The notes under the pieces are model-generated. The model was not told where the DNA came from. It did no database searches and saw only the letters and a list, made by a program, of their open reading frames with translations. The translations under genes and the position numbers were made by a program. A DNA stretch of 51,239 nucleotides, taken from assembly GCA_021160245.1 (NCBI GenBank), contig JAGHCW010000232.1, positions 1-51,239 on the forward strand, in the 5' to 3' direction. Shown here in pieces: positions 2,129-23,900 of this stretch (position 1 is its first letter; every line of letters begins with the position of its first letter). Origin of the DNA: a bacterium (lineage in GTDB: Bacteria > B130-G9).

Positions 2129-2156
2129 GCTCTATTCATAGATTGTTGAGAATATA

Positions 2157-2229
2157 GCTGGCGTAGCTCAGCTGGTAGAGCAGGTGATTTGTAATCACCA
2201 GGTCGTGGGTTCGAGTCCCTTCGCCAGCT
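2157..2229 (+). tRNA. thrU: tRNA-Thr (anticodon TGT)
   Basis: A 73-base cloverleaf. The acceptor stem GCTGGCG pairs with CGCCAGC at 2222-2228 and T is the discriminator. The anticodon stem GGTGA/TCACC encloses the loop TTTGTAA, giving anticodon TGT. The T arm has the standard GGTTCGAGTCC. No CCA is encoded. It is the first member of the Thr-Tyr-Gly-Thr series that usually stands before tuf. Confidence 0.95.
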
Positions 2230-2255
2230 TGAATAAAGCGATGTTTCAAACTTGA

Positions 2256-2337
2256 GGGGAGATACCCAAGTGGTCAAAGGGGGCAGGCTGTAAACCTGTT
2301 GGCGTAGCCTTCGGAGGTTCGAACCCTCCTCTCCCCA
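2256..2337 (+). tRNA. tyrU: tRNA-Tyr (anticodon GTA)
   Basis: An 82-base tRNA with a long variable arm, as expected for bacterial tyrosine tRNA. The acceptor stem GGGGAGA pairs with TCTCCCC at 2330-2336 and the discriminator is A. The anticodon loop CTGTAAA gives GTA. The variable arm is around GGCGTAGCC and the T arm reads AGGTTCGAACCCT. It sits 26 bases after tRNA-Thr. In E. coli tyrU is followed closely by glyT; here 9.3 kb intervenes. Confidence 0.95.
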
Positions 2338-2405
2338 CTTGAGACAAGTGCCGCTCTCAGAGTCACAAGGGGCTCGGCGGCTTGGAACGCGATGCGAAAC
2401 CGAAA

Positions 2406-2413
2406 AAGGAGGT
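2406..2413 (+). promoter_or_regulatory. Strong ribosome binding site that fixes the start of the selenoprotein
   Basis: AAGGAGGT lies 5 bases before the ATG at 2419. An upstream in-frame ATG at 2392 has no such site and would place charged residues before the signal peptide, so 2419 is chosen as the start. Confidence 0.8.
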
Positions 2414-2418
2414 ACGCA

Positions 2419-5400
2419 ATGCATCGAAATCTCTTACTGTCAATCCTGCTGGTGTTTGTGGTTTTTGCCAGCTCAAACGTGTGGGCGACGATGCCCAGTG
2501 TCGGCGACACCGCCGCGAATGTTCGCTATCAGGATATAGATACCGGGGAGGACCTTTGGCTCTATGATGAGTACGAGGGGTCGATAGTCGTCCTTGAGAT
2601 GTTCGCAACCTGGTGAGGCTACTGCAGACCTACGCTGGTAGCGTATCAAGAATACATTTGGGATCACTTCAGACCTGACCAGCCCGTTTATGTCATCGGC
2701 ATGGCCGTCGACTCTAGAGAGTCTGCGGAGGATGTTCAACACTATAGAGACCAGTATGGTTTTCACGTTGATTTTGGTTGGGATGAGTACAATGATGTCT
2801 ATAATAATTACATGGGCTCGGGCTACCCGACCTCGGTAGCGATAGACTGTCAGGATCCGCCGAAAGTCATCTGGACGAGAAGTGGGCTATGCGACGATAA
2901 CAATGGCTGTGTGCAGGAACTACAGGCCCTGTGTGAGTCGGAAGTTCTGAAATGCGGCCAGCCGCCAGAGCTTTCCAACGCTAGTTTTGATCCAGCAGTG
3001 GGGAAGTCCAACTCTACCGACTTCTCATTCTATGTGGATTATTATGATGCAGATGAGGACCCGCCGGATTCCATCAACGTTTATGTGAATGGGAATCCCC
3101 ATGCTATGTCACTTGATTCGGGAGCCCCGGAGGACGGAACATACTTCTGGACCGGCGAGATTGCAGAGGACGGGACGGCGACTTATTACTTTGATTGTGA
3201 TGACGGCGGGAATGGAACAGATCGCTTGCCGGATTCCGGGACGCTTAATGGTCCCTATGTTTACGACGATTGGGACCCGCCGGAATCGAGCTGCACGGCG
3301 CCCGCCCGTTCACGCGACAGCGTGATAACGATCGATTACGTCTCCACGGATACTTATTCCGGGGTGTTCCAGGTTGATCTCTATATCCAATATGAGGGTA
3401 GCGGCTATACGCTATTGGACAGCTCGAACAATCCCAACGGGACGTTCACCGCGGCGCTCACCGCAGGCAACGGGACCTACGACTTTTATACAAGGGCCAC
3501 GGATGTCGTGGGCAATGTAGAAGATGCTCCGGGTGTCCCCGATTCATCTTGCCTGTTTGACAACGTGCCGCCGGTATCTAGCGCCGATGGCGGGATTGCC
3601 CCCTATTGGACGGGCTTGCCGATTACGGTCGATTTCACAGCGAACGACGCTCTTTCCGGAGTTGCCTCGACGAGCTTGTGGTATCGGTTCAGCAATGGCA
3701 TTTGGATTGACAGCGGTCTTTCGAGTTCCCAGGCAGCTGGGACGTTCGATTTCAACGCGCCTTCTGGTCAGGGCGTCTATGACTTCTACACAATTGCCAT
3801 TGACTTAAACGGCAATGTGGAGAATGCCCCGGGCGCCCCGCAGGCTACGGCTCATTATGACGCAACCAAGCCTGCTGCCAATTGCACGACCGTTGGCGAG
3901 ACGAATCAGTATTTTATAGAGGTTAATTTCACAGCGACCGATAATGATCAGGTAGCCAGCACGGCCCTCTGGTCTCGCTTTAACGCCGGGACGTGGACCG
4001 ATTTCGGTTCTCCGAGGGCAGGCGGTTCGGGCACCTTCGACTACCCGCTTGACGATGGTGATGGTCAATACGATTTCTACACAATTTCTGAGGATATGGC
4101 CGGCAATTCGGAGGACGTACCCGCTGAGCCCGAGGCTTCCGTTATTGCGGACTTCACGATGCCGAACTCCAGCTGCACGGCCGGCGCCTTGGTGAATTCA
4201 CTGCCGTTTGACGTTGACTTTGTTGCGGCCGATACAGGGACAGGCGTCGCGTCCACGAAGCTATGGTATCGCTACGAGGGCGAGCCGTGGCAAGATTCCT
4301 ATCAGACGCTTACCGGTGATGCTGGTGTGTTCTCCCTCGATCCGACGGAAATTACGCCACAGTTTAGGGACGGCATCTATCAGTTGATGACGATCGCAAC
4401 CGACAATGTCGGCAACAACGAGTCGCCGCCAGTTTCGCCTGACGCGGCCGCGATGTTGGATACAACAGCGCCCGAATCGTCCGTAACCTGTGCGGCGGAG
4501 ACGACGGGATCACCTCTGCTTTTGAACTATACTGCGGAAGATGCGCTTTCAGGCGTAGCCAGCGTGGCCTTGTGGTACAGGTCAAACGGCGGAGATTGGA
4601 CTGACACAGGACTTGTTGAGCTGATACCTCCAGGCTTTTCAGCTGGGGTGGAAAATGGCGTCTTCAGCTTTAGTCTAGTTGACGGCAGCGGGCTTTACGA
4701 GTTTTACAGCGTGGCGACGGATGTCGCGGGCAATGTCGAGTCGCCAGTCGCGCCGGACGCCTCCAGCATCTATGACATTGCCTCGCCGGTCTCCACATCT
4801 CAGACGGAGAGCATCGTTAACACGCCAACGATCAGCATTGAGTATAGTAGCGTGGACGAGCTTACCGCGATCGCAAACGTTCACCTTTTCTACCGCTTCA
4901 CAGACCTCGATGGCATTCCAGATGACACCTTGCGGGATACCGGCCTGGAACAGGTCGAGGCCGCCGGTACGTTCGTTTGGGCGCCGGATATGGGCCCGGG
5001 TCTTTACAACTTCTTCGTCTCTGCGACGGACGTTGCTGGCAATGTGGAGAATACGGACGGTGCTCCAGACGCGGTTTGCCTCTTTGATCCGCGAATGGTC
5101 ATGTCTGAGGTCACCGGCCCGAGTTATGTGACCGATTCCCAGGTACCCCTAACGTTCGCAACTCAGCTGGGCGCTGATGGCTATGATCATGTAACACTCT
5201 TTTATCGCTATGGTGTGACCTTAGAGGATGCTGAGGTGGCAGCCTGGATTGAGACCGCGATTGTTGCGATGGAACCGTTTGGGATTCTGCAATTTGAGTG
5301 CCTCGATGGTGATGGCTATTACCAATTCTACACGACGGCAGAGAGCGAGGGTGGACTGATTGAACCCGCGCCGGATACGCCGGATTGCACGACAATAGCA

Positions 5401-8400
5401 GACAGCGTCGCTCCAGATACTCTGGTTGAGGCGCCTCAGCTGTCGCCTACGTCGCAATTTGAGCTTACATACAGCGGAGCGGAGCTCTTTGGGCTCGCGT
5501 CGCTTGATATTTTCTATTGCTATGATGGCGACTGCTACCTCTTCACGACGCTTCATGATTTGAATGGGACGGTCATCTTTGATGCACAAGGCGTCGAGGG
5601 CGAGTACGAGTTCTATTCGATTGGAACCGACTCTGCCGGCAACGTAGAAGGCGTGCCGCTAACAGGCCAAGACTGCGTGGTGACAGTTGATCTCGCCCCG
5701 CCGGTCTCGGAGGCGATGGCTCCGCTCTTCGGAACGGGCTTCCCTATAGTCGTGGATTACATCGCTAGCGACACTGTTACGACAGTAACCAACGTTACTC
5801 TCTTGGTGAAGTACGAGTCCGGCGATTGGACGGATACAGGACTCTCGTCAGTGGGGGGTGCTGGCACGTTCAACTACACACCGGACGAGCTGCTTGAGGG
5901 AACATACAGCTTCTGCACAATTGGCACGGACGATGCCGGTCATACGGAGTTTATGCCCGCCATGGCAGATGCGCAGGCAACAATCGACTGGACAGCGCCT
6001 CAGACGAGTTGTTCGACTCCTGAGTACTCCAACGCGGCGCTTGTGCAGCTTTCCTACACGGCGAGCGACGCTCTAGCGGGGATGGAGGCGGTAACTTTCT
6101 GGACAAGCATTGACGGTGGAGCTTGGTTGGATACGGGTCTAATCGGGTCCGCTAACGGTGGTGTTGTCGAAGTAGATCTCTCGCCATGGGGTGAGGGGAC
6201 TTTCGGTTTCTGCACACTCGGTGTTGACAAGGCTGGCAATCATGAGGAATTGCCGGTTTCTCCGGTCTCGACCACAGTTTATGACGCGACTGTTCCAACT
6301 TCCGTGGCGGAGATTCCGACGGAGGGTATCTGCAGTAATACCGCTCCTGTGTTGGTTCCATACATGGCGTATGACGCGCTTAGCGGCATATCGAGCGTCT
6401 CCCTCTGGACTAGCTTCAATGGTGGGGCCTGGGTGGACTCCGGGCTCGAGGAGACGCCCTCTGTTCTCGCCGCTGGTACCTTCTCGTTCACACCGGCTCA
6501 CGGTGATGGCGAGTATAAGTTCGCAACTCTAGCTATTGATGTAGCTGGCAATGTCGAGGCGCTTCCCGTCATCGCTGACGGTGGGTCTCTGGTTTTTGAT
6601 GAGACCGCGCCTTCTTCGTCAGTCTCGTTTGAAACGACTTACGCCAAGGAGTTCCCGATTACGCTCGATTATGTGGCGTCCGATTTGACGTCAGGAATCG
6701 CGAACGTAGCACTTTGGGTTTCGCTTGATGGCGGGCCTTTTGTGAATACCGGCGTCTCAGCAGCAGGCACGGCTGGTGTCCTACAGTATACGCCAGCTGT
6801 CCTCTCAGACGGCGAGTATAGATTCTATTCGATCGCGGTTGATCTCTCTGGCAACGCTGAGGTTGCGCCGGTTCAAGCAGACGTAACGACAATAGTCGAT
6901 GTCGGGGCTCCGGTTTCTGCCGCAAGTTGCGAGGTTGTGTTCACAAATCAGTTCCCGATTGTGGTTTCTTTCACAGCGAGTGATGCTGCTTCAGGTTTGG
7001 CCGATGTCAAATTGTGGGTGAACTTGAATGGTGGGGAGTTTGCTGACACTGGGCTTTCCTCGTTCGATTTGGCAGGGACATTCACCTACTTGCCAGACGC
7101 GTTGCTTGACGGCACATACGGGTTCTATACGCAGTCCAGAGACCATGCGGGCAACACTGAGGCGGCGCCAGTTGTTCCTGATGTGTCGGTCATGATTGAC
7201 AGGACCAAGCCGCTTTCGTCCTGCAATGTTGAGCCTACGCTGATGGGCGCATTCCCCGTTTCGATTAATTACACCAGTTCGGACGGTGGTAGTGGAGTTG
7301 AGCAGGTGAAGCTGTTCTTCAGGGTCGATAGCGGGCCGTGGAATGAGGCTGTAACGTTCAATGACGCGACCGGTATTTACGACTTTGCTCCGGCGGCGCC
7401 TGTGGATGGCTATTTTGAGTTCTACACTAAGGCCTATGACATGGCGACCAATGTAGAGAATACTGTCGGAACGGACGATGCGGTGCGTGTGGACACGACA
7501 GCTCCGATGTCGCGAGCACTTGCCCCAGCTAAAGTGAACGAGCCCTTGATCTTGGTTTCCTTCACAGCTCGTGATGATGGCTCTGGAGTCTCGGGAACCT
7601 CGCTTTGGTATAGGCACAATGGAGGCATTTGGCTCGATTCTGCGCTCGAGAGCGCCGGGACGGTCGGTCAATTTGAGTTTGAGGCCACAGAGGGTGAGGG
7701 CTCTTACGAGTTCTATACTCTCTGCACCGACAATATCGGCAACCTTGAAACAGTGCCGGAAGAGCCAGACGGAACTACGGTGTACGTAATTCCAGCGCCG
7801 GAGATTTACGTGAGCATCACTGAGCTCGCTTTCGGTGATGTCGAGATTGGTCAGACCGCATTGCGGCGGTTCTCGATAACAAACAACGGCGACGCGGTTC
7901 TTTCCATCTCGGACGTATCGGTGAGTGATGCGGCTTTCTCGTTCGATCTAGGGCTTGAACTTCCTGTTTCGCTTGCTGCGAGTAATTCTCTTCTAACGGA
8001 TGTCCGATTTGAGCCGAGCACGGAGGGTGAATACACGGCGGAGCTTCAGATAACGTCCGACGATCCGAATACGCCTACTTATGTTATAGACCTTTCGGGC
8101 ACGGGTGTTGAGCCGCCGGATCAGCTTATACTCGATGTATTTGCGAACGGGGATGTCTTCGCGTTTGATGACGACCTTGATGTCAGTATAAGCGTGCAGA
8201 ACATCGGCGATCCTGTGACGGCGGATGTTTATCTTGTTCTGACTTATGATATGGACGGTCCGGATAAGATGACTTGGTCTGCGTCTTTCACAGAGATTTG
8301 GGTAGATGGTCTTGAGCCTGTTGCGAGTGATTATGTGATCGGAGACGGTTATGATGTCAATAATTTCACGTGGTGGTCATCGACTCTACCCTCGAGCTTC

Positions 8401-8889
8401 CCACAGGTTTCGATGACAGGAACCTATACGCTTGAACTATTCGCCGTGGAGCCTGGCACGATGGTGCATCTGTGCGATGCGGCGATAGATGAATTTGAGG
8501 TTATCGGTGAGCCGTATGTGGACATCTTGACGGATAAGGCAACTTACGAGTTGGCCGGCGACACATTGAGCATTACGCTTGATGTTCAGATGCCGGACTT
8601 CCCTGTTACTGGAGATTTCTACGTGGTTCTTAAGGATCCGGATGGCAACGAGTGGTCACCTAGTAGTTTTGGTGAGGGGGTCGTGTGGTCGCCTAATGCC
8701 GCGCCAATGTTCCCATCGATTACCGTTCCGGCAGGGTTCGAGTTCGCCAATGTGTCGTTTATTGTGGAATTGCCTTCTGCGGCCCCATTTGACGTGGCCG
8801 GTGATTTCACTCTCACTACGATGCTCGTAAGAGGGGGGACTTTTGAGCCCTTCTCCGACAGAGGCACAGCCACCTTCACATTGGAGTAG
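2419..8889 (+). CDS. Giant secreted selenoprotein: thioredoxin (TlpA-like) domain with UxxC, 15 Ig-like repeats, shared C-terminal module
   Basis: Read with the TGA at 2614-2616 as selenocysteine, this is one 2,156-residue protein; read as a stop it gives a 65-residue fragment and an orphan frame from 2701. Residues 1-23 are a signal peptide ending Val-Trp-Ala. Residues about 24-155 form a thioredoxin fold: IVVLEMFATW leads into U66-Gly-Tyr-Cys69 where TlpA proteins have CxxC, and GYPTSVAID supplies the cis-proline loop. Residues 287-1791 are about 15 repeats of 100 residues with SGVASVxLWYR, AGTF, YxFYTxAxD and AGNVE signatures. Residues about 1795-1898 resemble the HYDIN/choice-of-anchor D fold (FGDVEIGQT, ISGT-type end). 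Residues 1901-2156 match the end of the next gene. The location should be periplasm or cell surface, with a thiol/selenol redox role inferred from the motif. A simple nonsense mutation of a Cys codon is the main alternative. Confidence 0.8.
2614..2616 (+). other. In-frame TGA, proposed selenocysteine codon
   Basis: The triplet sits between TGG and GGC TAC TGC, exactly where the first active-site cysteine of a thioredoxin motif is expected. The frame is open for about 200 bases before it and 6.2 kb after it, with coherent protein homology on both sides. TGA serves as a normal stop in ptsI, rpmG, rplA and rpoB, so a genome-wide reassignment is not the explanation. Confidence 0.78.
2631..2645 (+). 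promoter_or_regulatory. Candidate bacterial SECIS hairpin
   Basis: TACGCT (2631-2636), loop GGT (2637-2639) and AGCGTA (2640-2645) form a perfect 6-bp stem. The apical loop begins 20 bases after the TGA. Bacterial SECIS elements are known as small hairpins inside the coding region just 3' of the UGA, with a G-rich apical loop (GGU in E. coli fdhF). Position, stem length and loop all fit. No folding program was run. Confidence 0.65.
3277..7791 (+). repeat. Fifteen degenerate tandem repeats of about 300 bases coding for Ig-like domains
   Basis: The 4,515 bases encode about 15 units averaging 100 residues. Each unit typically begins TxPxSS, contains a variant of ASDALSGVASVxLWYR, then GGxWxDTGL, AGTFxFxP, GxYxFYTxAxDxAGNVE and ends PDAxxxxD before the next T-x-P. 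Units 7, 8 and 14 are the most divergent. The DNA copies differ considerably, so the array is old rather than a recent expansion. Confidence 0.85.
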
Positions 8890-8917
8890 TAAAACAACTA
8901 ATATCTCGGTGAACGAA

Positions 8918-8944
8918 GCCGGGCGCCTCGCGCAGGCGCCCGGC
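8918..8944 (+). terminator. GC-rich hairpin after the selenoprotein gene
   Basis: An 11-bp perfect stem (GCCGGGCGCCT with AGGCGCCCGGC) with a 5-base loop lies 28 bases after the stop. No T-run follows, so it may be a weak or Rho-assisted terminator, or a 3' end stabiliser between co-transcribed genes. The next gene starts only 34 bases later and no promoter is evident in between. Confidence 0.5.
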
Positions 8945-8978
8945 TGCCTACTGCAATTGAGCGATCAGAGGGGGTAAG

Positions 8979-11228
8979 ATGAAGAGTCTCTTTTTGTTGT
9001 CGGCGTTGATCTTATTTATGGCTACCTCATTGCTGTACGCCGACTTTGAGATGGATACTAGCCTCGCGGATTCGGACGCTTCGTTTATAGGCGAGGCCGA
9101 AAAGAATATGGCAGGCGGTTGTGTCTCAAACGTTGGCGATGTTAACGGCGACGGCTACGATGACTTCGCCGTCGTATCATTGCCCAAGAGCACCTACGCT
9201 GGTCAAACGTATCTGTTCTTTGGCAAGGCTTCAGGCTGGGCGATGGACACAAGCCTTGCCGATGCCGATGCGTCGTTCATAGGTGAGGCCGGAGGCGATT
9301 ACTCAGGCGACTCTGTCTCCGCGCTGGGCGACGTCAACGGGGACGGCTACGACGACTTGCTCATCGGTGCGCCCAACAACGACGAAGCCGGCAAATGCGC
9401 CGGTCAGGCGTATTTGATCTTCGGGAAGGTTTCTGGCTGGGCGATGGACACTAGTCTTGCAGATTCCGATGCCTCGTTCATAGGCGAGACTGAAGAATAC
9501 CGCGCGGGTGCATCAGTCTCTGGCGCTGGTGATGTGAACGGGGACGATTTCGACGACTTCATTATAGGCGCGCCCAACAACGCCGTAGGCCAAACCGGCT
9601 ACGGGCCCGGTCAAGCCTATCTCATTTTCGGCAAGGCTTCTGGCTGGGCGATGGATACTAGCCTCTCTGATTCCGATGCCTCGTTCTTAGGCGAGGTAAC
9701 GGATGATGCGGCTGGATCTTCGGTCTCAGGCGCCGGCGACGTGAACGGCGACGGCTTCGACGACTTCATTATCGCCGCGCCCGGCAACAATGAAGCCGGC
9801 GATTGCGCTGGCGAAACGTATCTGGTTCTCGGTAAGGCATCCGGCTGGGCGATGCGCGCCAGTCTGGCCGATTCCGACGCATCGTTTTGGGGCGAGGCAG
9901 AGTGGGATTCGGCGGGAGAATCGGTCTCAGGCGCTGGCGACGTAAACGGCGATGGCCTCGACGACTTCCTCATTGCGACGCCCTACAACGGCGAACCCGG
10001 CAGCGTCTGGGCAGGTCAAACATATCTGATTTTCGGCAATGCTTCAGGCTGGACGATGGATATGAGCCTGGCTGACTCCGACGTATCGTTCACTGGGGAG
10101 GTGCAGGGCGATTTCGCAGGCTACTCTGTGTCTGGCGCTGGCGACGTGAACGGCGACGGCTACGACGACATTGTCATCGGGGCCTGGGACAACAACGAAG
10201 GCGCCCCATTAGCTGGTCAGGCGTATCTGATCTTCGGCAAGGCATCAGGCTGGGCGACGGGAACCAGTCTTGCAGATTCCGATGCATCGTTTTGGGGCGA
10301 AGTAGCGGAAGATAGGGCAGGCATATCTGTGTCTGGCGCCGGTGATGTGAACGGCGACGGTAACGACGAGCTCATCATCAGTGCGCATACGAACTCCGAA
10401 GGCGGTCATCAGGCTGGTCAAGCATATCTGATCTTTGGTGAGGAGCCTGGGCTGCCTCTCGGGATTACAGTGGGTGTTTCGAGCAATTCCGACAACTGCG
10501 AATTCGGCGATGTTCTGGAGATTGACGTTTCTGTGAAAAACACCAGCATGTCAGCATTCGTCGATATATTAGCGGTTCTGACATTCGATCTGGGCGGACC
10601 TGAAGAGAGGCATTGGTCGGCTTCCGCGACGGGCGAATGGTCTGACGGGCTCTCCTATTACGATTGCGGCGTGTTGCTCGAGACGGGGCATGACGAGACG
10701 ACGCAAGTCCTGTCAGCGACTCTGCCGTGTGAGTCGCCGATGATAGCCAAGTCCGGCGATTACACGCTCAGGATGGTTGCTTGCCAGCAGGGGACTCTTG
10801 ACTTCGTGTCCAATCTTGCGACATCTACGTTCGTGCTGAATGGCGAGCCGTTCGTGGACATCTTCACGGACAAGGAGACATACCAGATGACGGGCGATAC
10901 GCTGAATATCTCGCTTGACGTTCAGATGCCGAACTTCTCCGTGACGGGCGATTTCTACGTGGTTATTCTAGACCCGGATGGGAATTATTGGTCGCCAAGC
11001 GGCTTCGGCGGTGCGGAGGTCGTGTGGTCGCAAAACGTTATGCCGATGTTCGCATCTATTACCGTCCCGGCCGGGTACGAGTTCGCCAATGTGTCGTTTG
11101 TTGTGGAGTTGCCTTTTGGCGGCCCATTTGATGTGGCGGGTGATTTCACGCAGATTGCGCAGCTCGCAAGAGGCGGGACACTTGAGTCTTTTTCCGACAG
11201 AGGCGCATCCACCTTCACATTGGAGTAG
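8979..11228 (+). CDS. Secreted FG-GAP seven-bladed propeller protein with the shared C-terminal module
   Basis: This is a 749-residue exported protein of unknown function. Residues 1-21 are a signal peptide (MKSLFLLSALILFMATS and on, ending Leu-Tyr-Ala). Residues 25-493 are seven repeats of about 66 residues, each with ASFxGE, SVSGAGDVNGDGYDDF and GQAYLIFGKASGWA. The DxNxDGxDD core is the calcium-binding loop of FG-GAP/integrin-alpha blades, and seven copies make a closed propeller. Residues 494-749 match the last 256 residues of the preceding selenoprotein. The start has a GAGGGGG site 5-10 bases upstream. It follows that gene by 89 bases and is probably in the same unit. Propellers of this kind usually bind partners at the cell surface; which partner is unknown. 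Confidence 0.85.
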   Translation: MKSLFLLSALILFMATSLLYADFEMDTSLADSDASFIGEAEKNMAGGCVSNVGDVNGDGYDDFAVVSLPKSTYAGQTYLFFGKASGWAMDTSLADADASFIGEAGGDYSGDSVSALGDVNGDGYDDLLIGAPNNDEAGKCAGQAYLIFGKVSGWAMDTSLADSDASFIGETEEYRAGASVSGAGDVNGDDFDDFIIGAPNNAVGQTGYGPGQAYLIFGKASGWAMDTSLSDSDASFLGEVTDDAAGSSVSGAGDVNGDGFDDFIIAAPGNNEAGDCAGETYLVLGKASGWAMRASLADSDASFWGEAEWDSAGESVSGAGDVNGDGLDDFLIATPYNGEPGSVWAGQTYLIFGNASGWTMDMSLADSDVSFTGEVQGDFAGYSVSGAGDVNGDGYDDIVIGAWDNNEGAPLAGQAYLIFGKASGWATGTSLADSDASFWGEVAEDRAGISVSGAGDVNGDGNDELIISAHTNSEGGHQAGQAYLIFGEEPGLPLGITVGVSSNSDNCEFGDVLEIDVSVKNTSMSAFVDILAVLTFDLGGPEERHWSASATGEWSDGLSYYDCGVLLETGHDETTQVLSATLPCESPMIAKSGDYTLRMVACQQGTLDFVSNLATSTFVLNGEPFVDIFTDKETYQMTGDTLNISLDVQMPNFSVTGDFYVVILDPDGNYWSPSGFGGAEVVWSQNVMPMFASITVPAGYEFANVSFVVELPFGGPFDVAGDFTQIAQLARGGTLESFSDRGASTFTLE
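9051..10457 (+). repeat. Seven tandem FG-GAP blade repeats of about 200 bases
   Basis: Seven units of about 66 codons, each opening with a variant of MDTSLADSDASFIGE and closing with YLIFGKASGWA. The DNA is also clearly similar between units (for example around GGCTGGGCGATGGACAC), so the array is more homogeneous than the one in the preceding gene and may be younger or kept alike by recombination. Confidence 0.85.
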
Positions 11229-11336
11229 TAACACGAGTTAAGATCTCGGCAAGTGAAGCTGGACGGCTCATGCGGCTGCCGGCTTGCGCTTGATACATTC
11301 TCCCGCAAGCGGACTTCGCGACGTTGATTTTTCTGC

Positions 11337-11364
11337 TTGACACGCGGTTGAAATGGAGTAATGT
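11337..11364 (+). promoter_or_regulatory. Weak promoter candidate upstream of tRNA-Gly
   Basis: A perfect TTGACA at 11337-11342, followed after 16 bases by TAATGT, a poor -10 box. It is over 300 bases before tRNA-Gly, so it is the less likely of the two candidates in this gap. Confidence 0.25.
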
Positions 11365-11497
11365 TGTTTGCTCTTATTGATTCTGTGGAGCCTCGGAATT
11401 GAAGTCGCGGGCGCATGGAAGGGCATTGCGCGTCGTCTATTTGGCGACAGTCTATCAGAAAGTTATTGTCCTCGGGCGCAGCCAGAGCATAAGTTAC

Positions 11498-11525
11498 TTG
11501 ACTTGCTGAAAAAGGAGTCTATGTT
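11498..11525 (+). promoter_or_regulatory. Candidate promoter for tRNA-Gly, tRNA-Thr and tuf
   Basis: TTGACT at 11498-11503 and TATGTT at 11520-11525 with a 16-base spacer. A new promoter would be needed here because the big insertion cuts the Gly-Thr-tuf genes off from the upstream tRNA promoter. The leader to tRNA-Gly would be about 140 bases. Prediction by eye. Confidence 0.4.
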
Positions 11526-11674
11526 TTGGCATTGCTTCGGCAATTCGACTCAGGTGGCGGGTTGGAGGTTTATCAGGGACATGAGCAGGATGATGCGGAA
11601 GAGTCTGCTTTTGTTGCTGTAGTGCTTGGTGGGCCGCGATATTGTGATGTATAGAGAGCGATGATGCGGTATGG

Positions 11675-11748
11675 GCGGGAGTAGCTCAGTTGGCTAGAGC
11701 ATCAGCCTTCCAAGCTGAGGGTCGCGGGTTCGAATCCCGTTTCCCGCT
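11675..11748 (+). tRNA. glyT: tRNA-Gly (anticodon TCC)
   Basis: A 74-base cloverleaf. The acceptor GCGGGAG pairs with TTCCCGC at 11741-11747. The anticodon stem TCAGC/GCTGA encloses CTTCCAA, giving TCC. The T arm is GCGGGTTCGAATCCCGT. It is followed at once by a run of seven T, but tRNA-Thr begins 18 bases later. Confidence 0.95.
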
Positions 11749-11766
11749 TTTTTTGTTGGGATGTTC

Positions 11767-11839
11767 GCCCACGTAGCTCAGCAGGTTGAGCACTTCCTTG
11801 GTAAGGAAGAGGACACCGGTTCGAACCCGGTCGTGGGCT
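11767..11839 (+). tRNA. thrT: tRNA-Thr (anticodon GGT)
   Basis: A 73-base cloverleaf. The acceptor GCCCACG pairs with CGTGGGC at 11832-11838. The anticodon stem CTTCC/GGAAG encloses TTGGTAA, giving GGT. The T arm is ACCGGTTCGAACCCGGT. It stands directly before tuf, as thrT does before tufB in E. coli. Confidence 0.95.
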
Positions 11840-11866
11840 TTCAAAAGATTAACCGAATAGATTGGT

Positions 11867-11921
11867 AGAGGGACGGATGGGTCTGATCTGGCTTTCGCCC
11901 TCTTAAGAGGATGCTAGGAGG
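11867..11921 (+). promoter_or_regulatory. tuf leader with competing inverted repeats near the ribosome binding site
   Basis: AGAGGG (11867-11872) can pair with CCCTCT (11898-11903). The same CCTC (11899-11902) can instead pair with GAGG at 11907-11910, or with GAGG inside the AGGAGG ribosome binding site at 11916-11921. These pairings exclude one another. A regulatory role is only a possibility. Confidence 0.25.
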
Positions 11922-11928
11922 ATAGCGG

Positions 11929-13116
11929 ATGGCAAAGGCGAAATATGAACGGACGAAGCCTCATGTGAACATTGGCACGATTGGTCACATAGATCATGGG
12001 AAGACGACACTCACGGCAGCCATAACACGTTGTTTAGCGAAGAAGGGCCTCGCAGACTTCACTCCGTTCGATAGAATTGACAAGGCGCCCGAGGAGCGGG
12101 ATCGAGGTATCACGATCGCGATTGCTCACGTTGAATATGAGACGGAGAATCGGCATTACGCTCACGTGGATTGCCCAGGACATGTGGATTATATCAAGAA
12201 CATGATTACGGGCGCAGCTCAGATGGATGGTGCTGTCCTAGTTGTGGCCGCGGACGATGGTCCGAAGCTGCAGACGCGAGAGCACATACTTCTCGCAAAG
12301 CAGGTTGGGGTTCCCTCTATCGTGGTTTATCTTAATAAGGCGGACTTGGTCGATGACAAGGATCTGATTGAGATTATTGACATGGAGGTTCGCGAGCTGC
12401 TGGACAAGTATGATTTCCCGGGTGATGAGGTTCCCATTATTGTGGGTTCTGCAAGAAAGGCTCTCGAAAGCGATTGTGAGGAGAGTGGCGAGTCGATTAT
12501 GGAGCTCGTCAAGGCGATAGACGAGTACATCCCGACTCCGGTAAGGGATATGGAGAAGCCATTTTTGATGTCGGTGGAGGACGTCTTCACGATTCAAGGC
12601 CGCGGCACGGTTGCAACGGGTAGGGTCGAAAGAGGCGTTGTTAAGATGGGCGAGGACGTTGAGATAGTTGGTATCACCGAGACTCGTAAGACCGTTTGCA
12701 CGGGCGTTGAGATGTTCAGAAAGACTCTTGATACGGGCGAGGCGGGCGACAATGTTGGTGTGCTTTTACGAGGCGTGAAGCGCAAGGACGTTCAGCGTGG
12801 CCAGGTGATCGCGAAGCCTGGGACGATAACACCGCACACTCATTTTAAGGCTAAGGTGTATATATTGTCGGAGAAAGAGGGTGGGCGTCACAAGCCTTTC
12901 TTCACCGGATACCGGCCGCAGTTCTATTTTAGGACGACGGATGTAACAGGAGTAATTGGCCTTGCGGATGACGTCAACATGGTTATGCCGGGTGATAGCG
13001 TCGATATGACTGTCAAGCTGATACACCCAATAGCCATGGAGGTTGAGCAGCGCTTTGCGATTCGCGAAGGAGGCAGGACAGTTGGTGCCGGAGCGATTAC
13101 GGAAATAATCGAGTAA
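11929..13116 (+). CDS. tuf: Elongation factor Tu
   Basis: This GTPase brings aminoacyl-tRNA to the ribosome. The 395 residues are the usual length. Nucleotide-binding motifs are GHIDHGKT (19-26; most relatives have Val where Ile21 is), DRGITI in the effector region, DCPGH (81-85), NKAD (136-139) and GSARKAL. At 111-116 the sequence is GPKLQT where nearly all EF-Tu proteins have GPMPQT. The ATG follows an AGGAGG site by 7 bases. It is the only tuf in the window: the usual second location after fusA is empty, so this copy, in the tRNA-linked position, may be the sole one. It is followed by rpmG after 24 bases. Confidence 0.97.
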
Positions 13117-13140
13117 AAAGGTTAGTTCGGGGAGCGATTG

Positions 13141-13311
13141 GTGGCCAAAAAGGCGAAAAGGCAACGGGAAATCGTTACATTGGCTTGTGCGGACTGTCGT
13201 CAGCGTAACTACACGACGACTAGAAATAAGCGTAAGCATCAAGAGAAGTATGAGTTGAGCAAGTACTGCAGGTTTTGCAGGAAGCACACCTCGCACAAAG
13301 AGATACGGTGA
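13141..13311 (+). CDS. rpmG: 50S ribosomal protein L33
   Basis: A 56-residue protein starting at GTG, with GGGGAG about 7 bases upstream. It is the zinc-binding form: Cys16-x2-Cys19 (CADC) and Cys43-x2-Cys46 (CRFC), with NYTTTRNKR and KYELSKYC typical of L33. It lies between tuf and tRNA-Trp, the common position in many bacteria (tuf-rpmG-trnW-secE-nusG). It stops at TGA. L33 sits near the E site of the large subunit. Confidence 0.95.
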
Positions 13312-13336
13312 TTGTTATAGGATAGGCTCCATTTTG

Positions 13337-13409
13337 AGGCCAGTAGCTCTAATGGTAGAGCGCCGGATTCCAAATCCGGATGTTGGGGGTTCGAGTCCCT
13401 CCTGGCCTG
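13337..13409 (+). tRNA. trnW: tRNA-Trp (anticodon CCA)
   Basis: A 73-base cloverleaf. The acceptor AGGCCAG pairs with CTGGCCT at 13402-13408 with G as discriminator. The anticodon stem CCGGA/TCCGG encloses TTCCAAA, giving CCA. It is embedded between rpmG and secE, a widely conserved location. Confidence 0.95.
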
Positions 13410-13444
13410 CAACTTAGGAATCAGGAAGGGCTTGGTCGAGCTTC

Positions 13445-14790: not shown

Positions 14791-14832
14791 TGGATTGTTC
14801 CTTCGAGTATCGCATATTTGGAAGGTAGGATA

Positions 14833-15540
14833 ATGGCGAAGCGAGGAAAGAAGTATCTGGAGGCCGCGTCGAAGGTTGACCGCCAGAAGCAGTATCCGCT
14901 TGAGGATGCGATTGGGATGGCTTGTGAGCTATCGTTCGCGAAGTTCGACGAGACATTGGAGGTCTCGGCCAAGCTCGGAGTGGATCCTAGGCATGCCGAT
15001 CAGATGGTTCGCGGGACTGTGAATCTTCCGAATGGTACTGGCCGGAAAATTCGGGTGCTGGTCTTCGCGAAGGGAGAGAAGGAGAAGGAGGCGGAGGTCG
15101 CAGGAGCTGATTATGTAGGTGGCGACGATTATGTGAAGAAGATACAGTCGGGTTGGCTTGAGTTTGAGTCTGTAGTTGCCACCCCTGACATGATGGCGAG
15201 CGTTGGCAAGCTTGGTCGGGTACTCGGGCCGAGGGGTCTGATGCCTTCACCCAAGACAGGGACGGTTACGTTTGACGTTGCGAAGGCTGTTCAGGAGTTG
15301 AAGGCAGGTAAGATCGAGTTCAAGGTTGATAGGACGTCGAATATTCACGCGCCGATTGGCAAGCGTGATTTTGGGAAAGACCGATTGATAGAGAACGCGA
15401 AGGCGTTTTTGGAAAATCTGCTTCGCGCGAGACCGGCTGCGAGCAAGGGCAGATACATCAGGAGCATGACTGTATCATCCACGATGGGGCCGGGTATCAG
15501 AGTGGATTCAGTGCAGACAGTAGCATCGTTGAAGGGCTGA
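14833..15540 (+). CDS. rplA: 50S ribosomal protein L1
   Basis: L1 forms the mobile stalk at the E site and represses its own operon in many bacteria. The product is 235 residues from the ATG at 14833, which has GGAAGG/AGGA upstream; a TTG at 14818 would add five residues that the family does not have. Signatures include [37 protein letters not shown] and [12 protein letters not shown]. It ends with TGA, 7 bases before rplJ. I did not find a convincing L1 operator in the short leader before rplK. Confidence 0.95.
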
Positions 15541-16569: not shown

Positions 16570-19500
16570 ATGACGGCCAAAAAGCCCGTTGATATGAGGC
16601 GGTCGTTCGAGAAGGTTAGGAGCGCTGTGCAAGTGCCGCCACTTCTCGCCGTTCAGACTGAGGCGTTTGCTGCGTTTCTCCAGCGTGAGGTTCCACCGGA
16701 CAAGCGTGGGGCATCAGGCGCTCAGGGGGTATTTGAGGACGTATTCCCTATAGAGAACACGAACAGGACGTGTCAGCTTGAGTTTGTGGCGTATGAGGTT
16801 GGCGCGGAGTATGTGTGTTCTTGCGGCATGACATCGGACCATTTCATGCGGCGGGAGCCCTGTGAACGATGCGGCCAGCATTTGCGCAGGAGACTTGAGA
16901 CTCGCTACACAGAGGAGGAATGTCTTCATCGCGAGATGACCTTCGCAGCGCCTATGCGCGTGCGTCTTCGACTGAGTACATTTGATGTGTCAGAGGAGGT
17001 TCGGAAACCGAAGGCTGCCACGGAGCGGACGATATTCTTGTGTGAGATGCCTTTGATGACGAAAAGAGGCACATTCATCATAAACGGGACCGAGCGCACG
17101 ATAGTCAATCAGCTGCACAGGTCGCCGGGTGTGTTTTTCTCGAGGTCTAAGGAGCCGGGGAGGCTTAGCGATTACTCAGCACGTGTGGTGCCTGAGCGTG
17201 GTCCTTGGCTGGAGTTTCTCTTCGACGCGAGAGGTGTTCTGCAGGCGCGAGTTGACACGAACAAGCGCAAGCGAAGGATACCAGCTTCATCCGTTCTGAG
17301 GGCATTGGGCTTGAGAACGAAGGAGGAGATTGTCCAGCGGTTCATCGGCGTAGAGGAAGTGGAGCAGGCGCCTGATGGGACTTTCCGACGTAAGCTGGAT
17401 CGGAAGATACATCTCGGTTATCGGCCTGAAGAGAACATAGAGGACCCCCAGACAGGGGCGCTGCTTGTGAAGAAGCATCATAAGATATCACGAGCTGCTC
17501 TTGCCCGATTGGAAAAAAGCGGCGTTGAGTATTTGCCAATGAACGAGAAGGAGTTAATTGGCAGAGAGTCGGTTTGGGAGATTCTTGATGATGAAGGCAA
17601 GGCGATTGTGCCTCGGGGCAAGGACATCACAGCGGAGGACCTTGAAGCGATCAAGAGCTCTCAGATAGAGAATATCGAGCTCTATCCGTCTCGAGGGGCG
17701 GAGTTTGCGAATTTGCTTTTCCGGACTATTCAGACAGAGGAAGTCCCTATCGAGCCAGAGTCCGGCACAGGAGCTGACGTGGGCGGAGAAGGAGGCAGCC
17801 CAGCTGCTCCTCAGTCTGCCGCGATCGAGTCGAGTGATGACGAGGCTGCTCGCAAGTTTTTCAACAATTTATTCTTCAATCCGAAGCGCTACGATCTTTC
17901 AGAGATTGGCAGGCTTCGCTTCAACTTTAAGTTCAAGAAGAAAACACCGCTTTCGGAGCGTTGTCTTACGGGCGATGATGTTATTGACACAATCGGTTAC
18001 TTGTTCAAGTTGAAGGCGGGCGAGGGCGAGATTGATGACATAGATCATCTCGGCAACAGGCGCGTGAGGCGCGTTGGCGAGCTTCTGGAGAATCAGTTTC
18101 GTTTGGGTCTGACGCGGCTAGAGCGACTGATACGGGAGAAGATCAATTCACAAGATGTGGATGAGCTTACGCCTCAGGAGCTTGTGAACTCCAAGGTTGT
18201 GAGCGGAGTTATAAAGGAGTTTTTTGGAGGCAGCCAGCTGTCTCAGTTTTTGGAGCAAACGAATCCACTGGGCGAGTTAACGCACAAGCGTAGGTTGAGC
18301 GCTTTGGGTCCTGGTGGTTTGACGCGTGAACGCGCGACCTTTGAGGTTAGGGACGTTCACACGACACATTATGGTCGGATATGTCCGATTGAGACGCCAG
18401 AGGGGCCGAATATCGGATTGCTTGCGTCTCTCACTATCTTTGCTCGGATCAACGAGAGGGGTTTCATTGAGACTCCGTATCGTGAGATCGACAAGACGGG
18501 CAAAGTGACGGAGACTGTGAAGTATCTCGATGCGCACGAGGAGGATAAGTATCACATTGCGCAGGCGAGTGAGCCGTTGACAGCTGACGGGTATTTGGCG
18601 TCAGAGATGATAGGCTCGCGTTTTCGAGGCAATTTTCACAGCGATTCGGCGTCGAAGATCCGTTATTTAGATGCTTCTCCTAGCCAGATCGTGAGCATGG
18701 CGGCAGCACTGATCCCGTTTCTGGAGCACGATGACGCAAACAGGGCGCTTATGGGCTCGAATATGCAGCGTCAGGCTGTGCCGTTACTTCGACCGGAGGT
18801 CTCCTGTGTTGGGACCGGAATGGAGAAGACTGCTGCGAGGGATTCGGGCGTTGTCCAGATCGCTTCGCGTGGCGGGACGGTCGTATCGGTAACAGGTAAT
18901 AGGATTGCCATTGAGGCGGATGAGGAGAGTCTCTTCGATGATGATGGCAGCAGGATAGCGGACGGCAGATTCGACATTTACTATTTGAAGAAGTTTCTTA
19001 AATCAAATCAGAACACATGCATAAATGAGCGGCCATCAGTTCGAGTTGGGCAGAAGGTGTCGAAAGGGGACCTCATAACGGATGGCTATGCGATTAGCGG
19101 AGGCGAGCTCGCGCTTGGGCGGGACATTCTGGTGGCGTTCATGCCGTGGCACGGCTACAATTACGAGGACGCGATCTTAGTTAGCGAACGAGTCGTTCGT
19201 GAGGACATCTTCACATCCATTCATGTTGAGGAGTACATGACCGAGGCGCGAGACAACAAGCTTGGTCCGGACGAGATCACGCCAGATATTCCTAATGTGC
19301 GGCCGGAGGCGCTTCGGCATCTTGACGGCAACGGCATAGCCAGGATCGGTTCTAAGGTTGCGCCGGGGGACATTTTGGTCGGCAAGGTAACGCCAAAGGC
19401 GGAGACCCAGCTTTCACCGGAGGAGAAGCTTTTGAAGGCGCTCTTTGGTGACAAGGCGAGGGATGTCAAGAACGCCTCATTATTTGTTTCGTCTGGTGTC

Positions 19501-20886
19501 TATGGGACAGTAATAGATGTTCGGGTTTTTGCTCGGAAGTCGGCCGAGGAGCAGTTGAATAAGCACAAGGTGGTTCAGGCTACGCTTGCAAATCTTCAGC
19601 GTCGAGAGGACGATGAGAGTCGGATCGTTGCGGCGGGTCGGGATAGGCTGATGCGTGAGGCGCTTCGTGGGACGATTCTCAGCAATGTATATACTGACCC
19701 TGAGACGAAGAAGGTCATCTGCAAGAAGGGCGGCAAGATAAGGCGGGATAAGCTGGAGAAGCTCCCCTATGCCGTGCTGCATGAAATAGCGATGAGGGAA
19801 GATGGGGAGCTCAGCGAGACTCTCAAGTCAATCATGCAGGCCGCGAGGAGTCAGATAGAGATCATTGAGACGCGCTATCGGGACCAACGGGATCGGATAC
19901 GCGGCGGAGATGAGTTGCGTCCTGGTGTTATTCAGATGGTAAAGGTCTATCTTGCGATAAGGCACGGTCTGAGTGTTGGTGACAAGATGGCCGGCCGGCA
20001 TGGTAACAAGGGCGTCGTGTCGAAGATTCTTCCAGTTGAAAGCATGCCCTATCTTGAGGATGGAACCCCGATTGATATCGTTCTCAGCCCACTGGGAGTG
20101 CCGTCACGGATGAACGTGGGCCAGCTTCTGGAAACTCATCTTGGCTGGGCTGCAAAGACCCTCGGTGAGAAGACGAGCAAGAAAATCTCTGAAGGCGCCT
20201 CGACAGAGGAGCTTCGTGATTGGCTCTTGGAGCTTTACAAGGGCAGCGATCGCGAGAAGGAGATTCGAAACGGTTCGGCGGAGGAGATTGGGGACTTTGC
20301 AGAGGGCATTGCCAAGCATGGTTTGCCGGTAGCCTGTCCGGTCTTTTCGAGTGCGACCGAGGATGAGATAAGACACTTGCTTGCTCTTGCGGAATTGCCG
20401 GAGACGGGCAAGACATCTTTGTACGATGGCGTAACGGGCGAGATGTTTGACCAAAAAGTTACAGTTGGCTATATATATGTGATGAAGCTCGACCATCTTG
20501 TTGACCACAAGATGCACGCCCGAGCAACAGGCCCCTATTCGCTGGTCACACAGCAACCGCTTGGTGGCAAAGCCCAATCTGGGGGGCAGAGACTCGGCGA
20601 GATGGAGGTCTGGGCGCTTGAGGGCTATGGCGCCTCTTACGCGCTTCAGGAGTTCCTTACTGTAAAGAGTGATGATGTAGAAGGCAGAAATAAGATATAC
20701 GAGGCAATTGTTAAGGGACTGGACCTCTCGAGACCTGGGACACCTGAGTCGTTCAACGTGTTGGTTAAAGAGCTTCAAAGTCTCGGACTTGATGTTGAGC
20801 TAATGGAGACCCGGAAGCGACCCAGGTTCTCCCGCTCTTTGATTGGTTTTGAGTCGGTAGAGAATAAGATAAAGACCGCAAGGTGA
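16570..20886 (+). CDS. rpoB: DNA-directed RNA polymerase subunit beta, with an inserted Cys4 ribbon
   Basis: The beta subunit forms one jaw of the polymerase and half of the active centre. At 1,438 residues it is about 100 longer than in E. coli. The rifampicin region reads SQLSQFLEQTNPLGELTHKR with Glu where Asp516 is usual. GYNYEDAILVSERVV and GDKMAGRHGNKGVVSKILP are intact. Between EFVAYEVG (71-78) and TRYTEEECLHREMTFAAP there are about 30 extra residues with Cys83, Cys85, Cys98 and Cys101, spaced like a zinc ribbon and absent from the well-studied RpoB proteins I can recall. A Glu/Gly/Ser-rich low-complexity tract lies near residues 395-420. GGAGG precedes the ATG; TGA ends it, 14 bases before rpoC. 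Confidence 0.97.
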   Translation: MTAKKPVDMRRSFEKVRSAVQVPPLLAVQTEAFAAFLQREVPPDKRGASGAQGVFEDVFPIENTNRTCQLEFVAYEVGAEYVCSCGMTSDHFMRREPCERCGQHLRRRLETRYTEEECLHREMTFAAPMRVRLRLSTFDVSEEVRKPKAATERTIFLCEMPLMTKRGTFIINGTERTIVNQLHRSPGVFFSRSKEPGRLSDYSARVVPERGPWLEFLFDARGVLQARVDTNKRKRRIPASSVLRALGLRTKEEIVQRFIGVEEVEQAPDGTFRRKLDRKIHLGYRPEENIEDPQTGALLVKKHHKISRAALARLEKSGVEYLPMNEKELIGRESVWEILDDEGKAIVPRGKDITAEDLEAIKSSQIENIELYPSRGAEFANLLFRTIQTEEVPIEPESGTGADVGGEGGSPAAPQSAAIESSDDEAARKFFNNLFFNPKRYDLSEIGRLRFNFKFKKKTPLSERCLTGDDVIDTIGYLFKLKAGEGEIDDIDHLGNRRVRRVGELLENQFRLGLTRLERLIREKINSQDVDELTPQELVNSKVVSGVIKEFFGGSQLSQFLEQTNPLGELTHKRRLSALGPGGLTRERATFEVRDVHTTHYGRICPIETPEGPNIGLLASLTIFARINERGFIETPYREIDKTGKVTETVKYLDAHEEDKYHIAQASEPLTADGYLASEMIGSRFRGNFHSDSASKIRYLDASPSQIVSMAAALIPFLEHDDANRALMGSNMQRQAVPLLRPEVSCVGTGMEKTAARDSGVVQIASRGGTVVSVTGNRIAIEADEESLFDDDGSRIADGRFDIYYLKKFLKSNQNTCINERPSVRVGQKVSKGDLITDGYAISGGELALGRDILVAFMPWHGYNYEDAILVSERVVREDIFTSIHVEEYMTEARDNKLGPDEITPDIPNVRPEALRHLDGNGIARIGSKVAPGDILVGKVTPKAETQLSPEEKLLKALFGDKARDVKNASLFVSSGVYGTVIDVRVFARKSAEEQLNKHKVVQATLANLQRREDDESRIVAAGRDRLMREALRGTILSNVYTDPETKKVICKKGGKIRRDKLEKLPYAVLHEIAMREDGELSETLKSIMQAARSQIEIIETRYRDQRDRIRGGDELRPGVIQMVKVYLAIRHGLSVGDKMAGRHGNKGVVSKILPVESMPYLEDGTPIDIVLSPLGVPSRMNVGQLLETHLGWAAKTLGEKTSKKISEGASTEELRDWLLELYKGSDREKEIRNGSAEEIGDFAEGIAKHGLPVACPVFSSATEDEIRHLLALAELPETGKTSLYDGVTGEMFDQKVTVGYIYVMKLDHLVDHKMHARATGPYSLVTQQPLGGKAQSGGQRLGEMEVWALEGYGASYALQEFLTVKSDDVEGRNKIYEAIVKGLDLSRPGTPESFNVLVKELQSLGLDVELMETRKRPRFSRSLIGFESVENKIKTAR

Positions 20887-20900
20887 CCGGAGGTTGACCC

Positions 20901-23900
20901 TTGGAGGGAGCAGTAGACCTATTTGACAAGCCTAGAGAGCCAAAGGCATTCGATTCGATCCGCATAGGGTTAGCATCTCCTGAGCGGATCCGCCAGTGGT
21001 CTCATGGCGAGGTTAAGAAGCCGGAGACGATCAACTACCGGACATTTAAGCCGGAGAAGGACGGTCTTTTCTGTGCCAAGATATTCGGCCCCGTCAAAGA
21101 CTGGGAATGCAACTGCGGCAAGTATAAGCGGATGAAGCATCGGGGCATTGTATGCGAGAAGTGCCATGTTGAGGTGATTCGCTCAATCGTGCGGCGTGAG
21201 CGGCTGGGGCATATTGAGTTGGCTTGCCCAGTGGCTCATATATGGTTTTTTAAAGCGCCTCCTTCTCGCATTGGTTACCTTCTTGATTTGACTATCAAGG
21301 AGTTAGAACGAGTCATTTATTATGAGTCTTACGTCGTAATCGATCCGGGGACCTCGGGTATTGAGAGAGGCAATCTCATCACCGAGGATGAGTTCCGTCG
21401 GTTCAAAGGGAACCCCGGGTTTTCCGCCATGATGGGAGCAGAGGCGATTCGCGAGCTCTTGGAGCGTCTCGATTTGGACGAACTTGCGGAGGAACTGCGC
21501 AGATCGCTTAGGCCGCGGGTCAAAGTGAAGCACGTGAAGGACAGCGACTTTCAGGTCAATCAGATCGTGGACAAGCTTCATTTCGACGAAGTATCAGAGA
21601 CGCTGATGGACAAAGGTGCCTCGCCGCCGGAGGGCAAGGTAGTGAGAATAGCTGTTCAGCCCTCTAAGAAGGCGGTCAAGCGGTTGCAGATAGTTGAGGA
21701 TTTGAGGCATTCGAACACAAATGGCAGACCGGCCAACAAGCCGGAATGGACTATTCTTACAGTGATTCCTGTGCTTCCGCCGGACCTCAGACCGTTGGTT
21801 CCACTTGAAGGTGGCCGGTTTGCGACGTCCGACCTAAACGATCTCTATCGGCGAGTGCTAAATAGAAATAACCGGCTCAAGAAACTCCTCTTGCTCAAGG
21901 CGCCGGAGGTTATTGTTCGCAACGAGAAGCGGATGCTGCAGGAGTCGGTTGACGCCCTTCTGGACAATAGCCGTCGCTCGAGGCCGGTAGTTGCGCCTCA
22001 TAATAGACCGGTTCGGTCACTGACAGACATGCTTCGGGGCAAGCAGGGTCGTTTTAGACAGAATCTTTTGGGCAAGCGGGTTGATTATTCTGGTCGTTCA
22101 GTAATCGTCATCGGTCCGCATCTTGACATACACCAATGCGGCCTTCCGAAGAGGATGGCGCTGGAGTTATTCAAACCATTCATTTACAACAGGCTCCAGC
22201 TTGAGGGGCTGGCGCCCACTATTAAGAGCGCCCGCAAGATGGTTGATTCGGAGCATGCTGATGTGTGGCGCGTTCTGAATGAGATTGTGAAGAATCACAC
22301 GGTCATGTTAAACAGAGCACCGACACTTCATAGGCTTGGGGTGCAGTCGTTCAAGCCCATACTTATTGAGGGAAAAGCGATAGAGGTTCCCGCGCTTGTA
22401 TGTGCTGCCTTCAACTCGGATTTTGATGGTGATCAGATGGCGGTGCATGTTCCTTTAACAACGAGGGCCCAGGCGGAATCTCTGGCCTTGATGTTGGCTA
22501 GCAACAATATTCTATCTCCGGCCAACGGGAAGCCTGTGGCCGTTCCATCTAAGGACATAGTTCTTGGTTGCTACTATCTGAGCAGGATGCGAAAAAAGCA
22601 GCCAGATGATCGCACTTTCAGCAATATTGGTCAGGTGCTGACTGTGTTTGCGCTGGAAGAGCTCGAGCTTCTGGATGCTGTCAGAGTTAGAATGCCTGTT
22701 TGGCAGTGCGAGAAGTGTGGTTTTCATATTCAGTCCCGAGAGACACCCCATAAGTGTCCCGAATGTTGGGGGCAGGATTTCAAGCCTTCAACTGCCTGGT
22801 TGTGTGAGAAATGTGGCTTTCTGCTTTATCGGAGCAAACCCAGCAAGCGTTGCTCAAGTTGCGGTGGCCGAGGAACCATGAAGCACCGGAATGTCGTTGT
22901 GACGAGTCCGGGGCGCGCGCTTTTCAATGACGAGATGCCGAAAGGTTATCCCTATGTGAATGAGGTGTTGAACAAGTCAATTCTCGCAAATCACATTCTG
23001 CAGGTATTCACGCTCTATGGCAGGGCACGGGCGGCAAGCGTTCTGAACAACCTCAAGGACCTTGGGTTCAAGTATTCCACATACGCTGGGGCCTCGATAT
23101 CCATAAGTGACATCACGATTCCCAAGGAGAAGTACGAGATCGTGGATGAGGCGGACGCGAGGCTTGTGGAAGTAATGACGGACTATGCTCGTGGTCGGAT
23201 TACTGATGGTGAGCGGCACAATAAGACCGTGGATATCTGGACAACCGCCAAGAGCAAGGTGGCCAGGATGGTAACTTCCAGCCTGTTGGCTTCTCGGGCG
23301 GAAGGGGCTAGAATAGATCTTGGCGACGCCGAGGGCTTTAATCCGATCTACATGATGCTTGCATCGGGCGCAAGAGGCAGCGAGGAGCAGATACTCCAGC
23401 TTGCTGGACTACGTGGCCTGATGAGTAAGACCTCCGGCGAGATCATTGAGACGCCGATCAACGCTAATTTCCGTGAGGGTTTGAGTGTTCTGGAGTATTT
23501 CATCTCAACTCACGGTGGGCGCAAGGGTCTTGCAGACACGGCATTGAAGACTTCGAATGCAGGCTATCTAACCAGGATACTGGTTGACGTAGCCCAGGAA
23601 GCCGTTGTTACTGAAGATGATTGTGGGACGATTTCCGGGCTGGTGATGACAGCGCTTTACGAGGGCATGACAGAGATCGCGCCATTAAGAGACAGGATAC
23701 TCGGGCGCGTCGCGTTGGAGGACGTAGTTGCCCCGAATGGGCGGGTGATCGTCGAGGCCAACGAAGAGATAGACGAGGTCAAGGCTCGGGAGATCGAGCG
23801 AGCCGGTATCCGGAAAGTTGGGATACGTTCGGTATTGACCTGTGAGGCTCGTAACGGCATTTGCGTTAAATGCTATGGTCGGAATCTCGCTAGGGGGACC

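Follow-up and report, generated by a model that had tools for sequence, protein, structure and literature searches.

A TGA-interrupted gene beside tuf

The window that we analysed, a stretch of 51,239 nucleotides, is from a MAG of Candidatus Coatesbacteria (3.43 Mb in 244 contigs, 95% complete). On its forward strand, the frame at 2419-8889 comprises 2157 codons, ends with TAG, and is open apart from a single TGA at 2614-2616 (codon 66). With this TGA translated as selenocysteine (U), the product has 2156 residues and the selenocysteine is residue 66. The features of the locus are listed below; G001, G002, and G003 are relatives from the same family.

2156-2338, forward: tRNA-Thr(tgt) at 2156-2230 and tRNA-Tyr(gta) at 2256-2338, directly upstream of the selenoprotein gene and in the same order in relatives (ARAGORN)
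2402-2421, forward: Shine-Dalgarno-like AAGGAGG and the ATG start at 2419 (sequence)
2419-8889, forward: predicted selenoprotein gene, complete (translation and comparison of homologues)
2419-2487, forward: predicted signal peptide, MHRNLLLSILLVFVVFASSNVWA (judged from the translation; hydrophobic, signal-like N-terminus)
2491-2955, forward: thioredoxin-fold (AhpC-TSA/TlpA/ResA-like) domain with a UxxC active site and a GYPT cis-Pro loop (Pfam, PDB sequence, Foldseek, alignments)
2614-2616, forward: in-frame TGA, putatively read as selenocysteine (W-U-G-Y-C; identical codon in G001, G002, and G003)
2617-2646, forward: ten codons with the gene's top synonymous conservation, the proposed bSECIS region (codon comparison)
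2631-2645, forward: proposed bSECIS upper stem-loop, UACGCU-GGU-AGCGUA (terms of the hairpin model)
3262-7750, forward: tandem Ig-like (Big_13-type) repeats, with approximate borders (Pfam PF19077 and translation)
7798-8106, forward: ASH/Cep192-D4/HYDIN-like Ig module, residues 1794-1896 (Pfam)
8979-11228, forward: downstream gene for an exported-looking FG-GAP repeat protein of 749 aa (Pfam and ORF listing)

A sequence-only reading of the window had claimed that this frame has one internal stop, that the stop falls on the first cysteine of a CxxC motif, and that the protein begins with a signal peptide and a TlpA-like thioredoxin fold. These claims stood up. Translation gives just the one TGA, in the context FATW-U-GYC, and the N-terminus is signal-like. 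Residues 28-134 match AhpC-TSA (PF00578 in Pfam) with 35.6 bits, against a gathering cut-off of 26. By sequence, thiol-disulfide oxidoreductases of the ResA/TlpA type are among the best PDB relatives, and the predicted fold, from a model of modest confidence (pLDDT of 62), matches ResA, DsbE, and TlpA (Foldseek, E of about 1e-6 to 1e-5). In the alignments and in the fold match to ResA/TlpA, UGYC is at the start of helix 1 and is accompanied by the cis-Pro loop GYPTS. The same reading had expected a standard gene caller to break the gene and lose the domain, and the standard-code ORF listing does begin the large gene at 2701 (a 2062-aa ORF), past the active site. It was right that 2419-8889 is a single gene, but the thioredoxin domain that it placed there covers only about 2490-2955; the remainder is mostly Ig-like repeats, together with the ASH/Cep192-like module.

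In 2156-13410, the selenoprotein and FG-GAP genes lie within a cluster of tRNA-Thr-Tyr, Gly-Thr-tuf, tRNA-Trp, nusG, rpl, and rpoBC genes. In G001 and G002, too, the gene lies between tRNA-Thr-tRNA-Tyr and tRNA-Gly-tRNA-Thr-tuf, and the upstream half of this tRNA gene arrangement is seen in the third relative, where the contig is short. The location in a translation gene cluster, beside tuf, nusG, and rpoBC, suggests that the gene may be strongly expressed. The FG-GAP gene is on the same strand after a gap of 89 bases, and its product is a possible partner of the selenoprotein.

Decoding of the TGA

We compared the gene across four genomes of three genera: the window's and those of the three family relatives, two of which are labelled as Candidatus Coatesbacteria MAGs. 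The relatives carry the gene at 64-67% protein identity, and in each of them it has a single TGA, at the corresponding codon. The flanking residues differ among the four genomes (WUGYC, YUGYC, or WUSHC) while the TGA is constant, and there is no TAA, TAG, or second TGA in the stretch of the gene that was read in the three relatives. Before the TGA, differences are concentrated at third codon positions (0.50, versus 0.12 and 0.12 at positions 1 and 2). The same is true of codons +12 to +28 after it (0.43 versus 0.12 and 0.03). From the TGA to the first internal ATG, amino acid identity is 0.80 and the substitution pattern is of the coding type. As judged from these patterns, purifying selection acts on this last stretch.

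The ten codons just after the TGA (+1 to +10) rank first among 780 ten-codon windows for synonymous conservation. Pairs of codons that encode the same residue are identical in 39 of 39 cases, with 19.1 expected (z = 6.6). The conserved element is UACGCU-GGN-AGCGUA, with its apical loop 20 nt after the UGA, and all four genomes have a SECIS-type hairpin; in the fourth genome, the loop has five bases and is 19 nt after the UGA. The bSECIS model quoted in PMC13188914 has a loop of 3-9 nt, a stem of 4-16 bp, a spacing of 16-37 nt, a G in the first two bases of the loop, and a free energy of -7.5 kcal/mol or below. The window's hairpin (loop of 3, stem of 6 bp, G first, spacing of 20) agrees with the model in loop, stem, G, and spacing. 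Scored alone, the proposed stem reaches only -5.0 kcal/mol versus the published -7.5, which we count against the selenocysteine reading. The 42-nt segment from the window folds at -10.1 kcal/mol, but this lowest energy belongs to a competing hairpin, and the z-score of -0.8 is not significant. The evidence for a SECIS element at this site is synonymous conservation in the sequences, not folding energy.

The host genome encodes the full machinery for selenocysteine, with SelA (559.5 bits), SelB (350.7 bits), SelD (364.4 bits), and a tRNA-Sec (SelC; 75.1 bits) whose anticodon is UCA according to ARAGORN. All four matches exceed the curated cut-offs. These genes are on other contigs than the window's, which, in a MAG of 244 contigs, we also count against the selenocysteine reading. 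SelA, SelB, and tRNA-Sec were found in the three family relatives as well. The host's selD gene (L017, G000:C157:13563-14486) has one in-frame TGA, at SelD's own selenocysteine site (GAGUASK). A strong SECIS-like hairpin (z = -3.3) comes after it, so SelD is very probably a selenoprotein itself.

Elsewhere in the window, TGA terminates ordinary genes, including those at 247-2001, 14818-15540, 16570-20886, and 20901-25679. From their positions, we take these to be ptsI-like, rplA-like, rpoB-like, and rpoC-like, respectively. Because TGA ends genes such as these, the code is not reassigned. Among the RF01852-like tRNAs that we examined, UCA was the anticodon of the SelC gene only; the others were for Ser, Leu, or Arg.

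These results bear on the remaining claims of the sequence-only reading. TGA is a normal stop in the rest of the window, as it had said, and those of its proposed checks that we ran all favor its conclusion: selA, selB, selC, and selD are present, the family relatives have TGA rather than Cys at residue 66 and no other disruptive stop in the stretch read, and a SECIS-like hairpin with exceptional synonymous conservation follows the UGA at the right spacing. Its central proposal, that the protein is decoded by SelB, is therefore supported at the sequence level by the machinery, by the TGA kept in relatives, and by the conserved hairpin.

Could the TGA be a defect instead? A pseudogene, or a sequencing or assembly error, with the downstream ORF starting internally at 2701, would fit the 2062-aa ORF in the standard-code listing. 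But the same TGA codon is in four separate genomes, no TAA, TAG, or other TGA accompanies it in the stretch read, selection has preserved the protein sequence from the TGA up to the internal ATG, and a peak of extreme synonymous conservation sits directly after the TGA. We give this explanation almost no credence. Two genes, or a genuine internal start, were ruled out by the conservation across the TGA. Alternatively, a suppressor-type tRNA could insert Cys, Trp, or Gly at a reassigned or read-through UGA. Homologues have Cys at this position, and the domain would therefore also work if a UCA tRNA inserted Cys there. Against this, TGA ends genes elsewhere in the window, the rpoB-like and rpoC-like ones among them, SelC has the only UCA anticodon among the RF01852-like tRNAs examined, the host has the full SelA/B/C/D set and a SelD with its own in-frame UGA, and across genomes TGA in this domain tracks SelA (see below). 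Insertion of another amino acid is therefore very improbable, if slightly less so than a defect.

A third alternative accepts selenocysteine and adds a switch: the cell would make mostly a 65-residue fragment, and the giant protein only when selenium is plentiful. According to PMC4513850, recoding of UGA in bacteria competes with release factor 2, reaches 30-40% in vivo, and depends on selenium, which fits a switch. So does the early position of the UGA: the gene is 6.5 kb long, and stopping close to its 5' end costs little. However, nothing in the sequence separates a switch from ordinary selenoprotein decoding, and selenocysteine at the catalytic position argues that chemistry comes first. 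We consider a switch unlikely, though less so than the other two alternatives.

We are nearly certain that this is a real selenoprotein gene, in which SelB and a bSECIS element place selenocysteine at 2614 and the product is an exported ResA/TlpA-like head on an Ig-repeat chain, with redox exchange as its most likely activity.

Proposed function and relationship to known families

Because conservation and the machinery both support selenocysteine, we propose that SelB and Sec-tRNA(UCA) decode the UGA at 2614 under the direction of the bacterial SECIS hairpin, which begins 14 nt after it. The signal peptide would export the product, so that a Sec-Gly-Tyr-Cys thioredoxin head is displayed at the N-terminus of a chain of roughly 2100 residues, mostly Ig-like repeats. 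Outside the cytoplasm, the protein most likely carries out thiol-disulfide or selenenylsulfide exchange, in which the selenolate of Sec66 would attack a substrate disulfide or an oxidant and Cys69 would resolve the intermediate. Electrons may arrive from the cytoplasm via membrane proteins of the CcdA/DsbD type, and the host encodes two such (DsbD_TM) proteins. As for the Ig-repeat chain, its role is probably to anchor the redox head at the surface or to project it there. The giant C-terminal region gives no hint of an enzymatic function, which we count against this explanation.

The window's domain resembles ResA, TlpA, and CcmG (DsbE) in its fold, in the placement of its active site, and in its predicted extracytoplasmic location. 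Known members of these families are short, Cys-based, and either membrane-tethered or periplasmic. In contrast, the window's protein is apparently Sec-based and is fused to a giant repeat region.

The domain reaches no NCBIfam cut-off among the three families that we compared it with. It scores 46 of the 170 bits required for ResA (NF002854), and it does not match NF041054 (ResA-like WAxxUGC motif protein) or NF053656 (TUGYCR motif (seleno)protein) at E <= 0.01. Across the ten proteins that were scanned, the best scores were 46.5 bits for NF041054 (cut-off of 300) and 22.9 bits for NF053656 (cut-off of 100). Both of the latter families are ResA-like selenoproteins with a thioredoxin fold, and NF041054 is weakly matched by several wider relatives, but its motif is UGC, whereas the window's WUGYC is UxxC.

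Selenoproteins with UxxC in related domains have been catalogued. PMC13188914 includes Prx-like thiol:disulfide oxidoreductases (PF00578, UxxC) and thiol-disulfide isomerase-like proteins (cd02966, UxxC; TlpA-like), and according to PMC2398784, thioredoxin-like selenoproteins with UxxC occur commonly in marine metagenomes. The catalogued PF00578 proteins and the window's protein belong to one family, have selenocysteine at the same place in a redox motif of the same kind, and are alike in their bSECIS-type decoding, which for the window's protein is predicted. The window's protein differs from the catalogued UxxC types in that its thioredoxin domain forms the N-terminal end of an exported 2156-aa protein with Ig repeats; the text of PMC13188914 does not use the terms T9SS, Ig-like, signal peptide, or multi-domain. 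Our search of the open-access literature turned up neither selenoproteins in Coatesbacteria nor a giant Ig-repeat protein with a Sec thioredoxin head, and none of the papers listed in connection with T9SS was relevant. So, TlpA/ResA-like selenoproteins with UxxC were already known, and it is the giant Ig-repeat architecture that we found to be undescribed in that literature.

UxxC relatives in other bacteria

We searched 386 genomes with a six-domain profile. Sec forms were the source of this profile, and the sampling is biased accordingly. Among the matches listed, at least about 21 had exactly one TGA and none had TAA or TAG, and the single-TGA homologues came from at least 13 genomes beyond the four family genomes. 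In those that we read, the TGA is at the U of U-x-x-C (WUGGC, WUPVC, WUPSC, TUGSC, GUPTC, TUPGC, WUGIC, and others). No relatives were found in phage records or viral contigs.

SelA was present in all 17 single-TGA genomes (the window's included) but in only about 40 of 82 Cys-only genomes (Fisher p = 2.5e-5; the Cys-only set is approximate, being drawn from the matches listed). SelB was above the cut-off in 15 of the 16 single-TGA genomes other than the window's. A bSECIS-type hairpin of -5 kcal/mol or better follows 18 of 20 of the TGAs, versus 11.4% of all TGAs in these loci; the threshold was derived from the value for the window's hairpin, and near copies are among the sequences, which makes p = 1.5e-15 a guide only. 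In a quick tree, the Sec label was clustered (7 changes versus 18 expected by shuffling, with 0 of 500 shuffles as low), and 15 of 20 Sec domains fell into one weakly supported group (SH-aLRT of 84).

Many of the UxxC proteins look exported and are multidomain, with T9SS sorting tails, a dockerin, an LVIVD propeller, or ASH modules; three genomes (G366, G100, and G227) have short TlpA-like UxxC proteins of about 200 residues. Based on these sequences, hidden exported UxxC selenoproteins occur in several distant bacterial lineages. With somewhat better than even confidence, we propose a broader view: that these are a largely unrecognised and mostly Sec-based subfamily of exported thioredoxins in distant lineages, which typically serve as the redox heads of multidomain surface or secreted proteins (with Ig repeats, T9SS tails, dockerins, or beta-propellers). 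If so, selenium redox chemistry on or outside the cell surface would be the work of large multidomain proteins whose genes are broken up by standard gene callers. Since standard annotation cuts such genes at the UGA and loses the active site, exported selenoproteins are easily missed in uncultured phyla. Taking them into account would change how much selenium these bacteria are predicted to need and what extracytoplasmic redox biology is predicted for them, and they offer testable material on why selenocysteine would be used outside the cytoplasm.

Many homologues read WATWCxxC, with Cys at the Sec position. One of them is a paralogue in the host (G000:C163, L082), and Cys paralogues in Coatesbacteria read WATWCSPC. 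Coatesbacteria genomes also have large paralogues whose CxxC is degenerate (SSSKC) or absent. The loci of these Cys and large paralogues are G000:C163 (L082), G000:C121 (L087), G000:C4 (L089), G002 (L085), and G001 (L090).

Two genomes of one genus, G053 and G326 (L127 and L128), each have two UxxC multidomain genes in close tandem, with very similar SECIS-type hairpins. In G057, the genes for tRNA-Sec, SelB, and SelA are together on contig C100, while contig C84 (L141) carries the N-terminal part of SelA and a UxxC multidomain gene. Because SelA is divided in this way, the two contigs probably join, which would make the UxxC gene a neighbor of the sel genes. On another contig of G057 (C320, L083), a different AhpC-TSA protein is possibly a further selenoprotein: its gene has an in-frame TGA in another context (CTUPPYLG).
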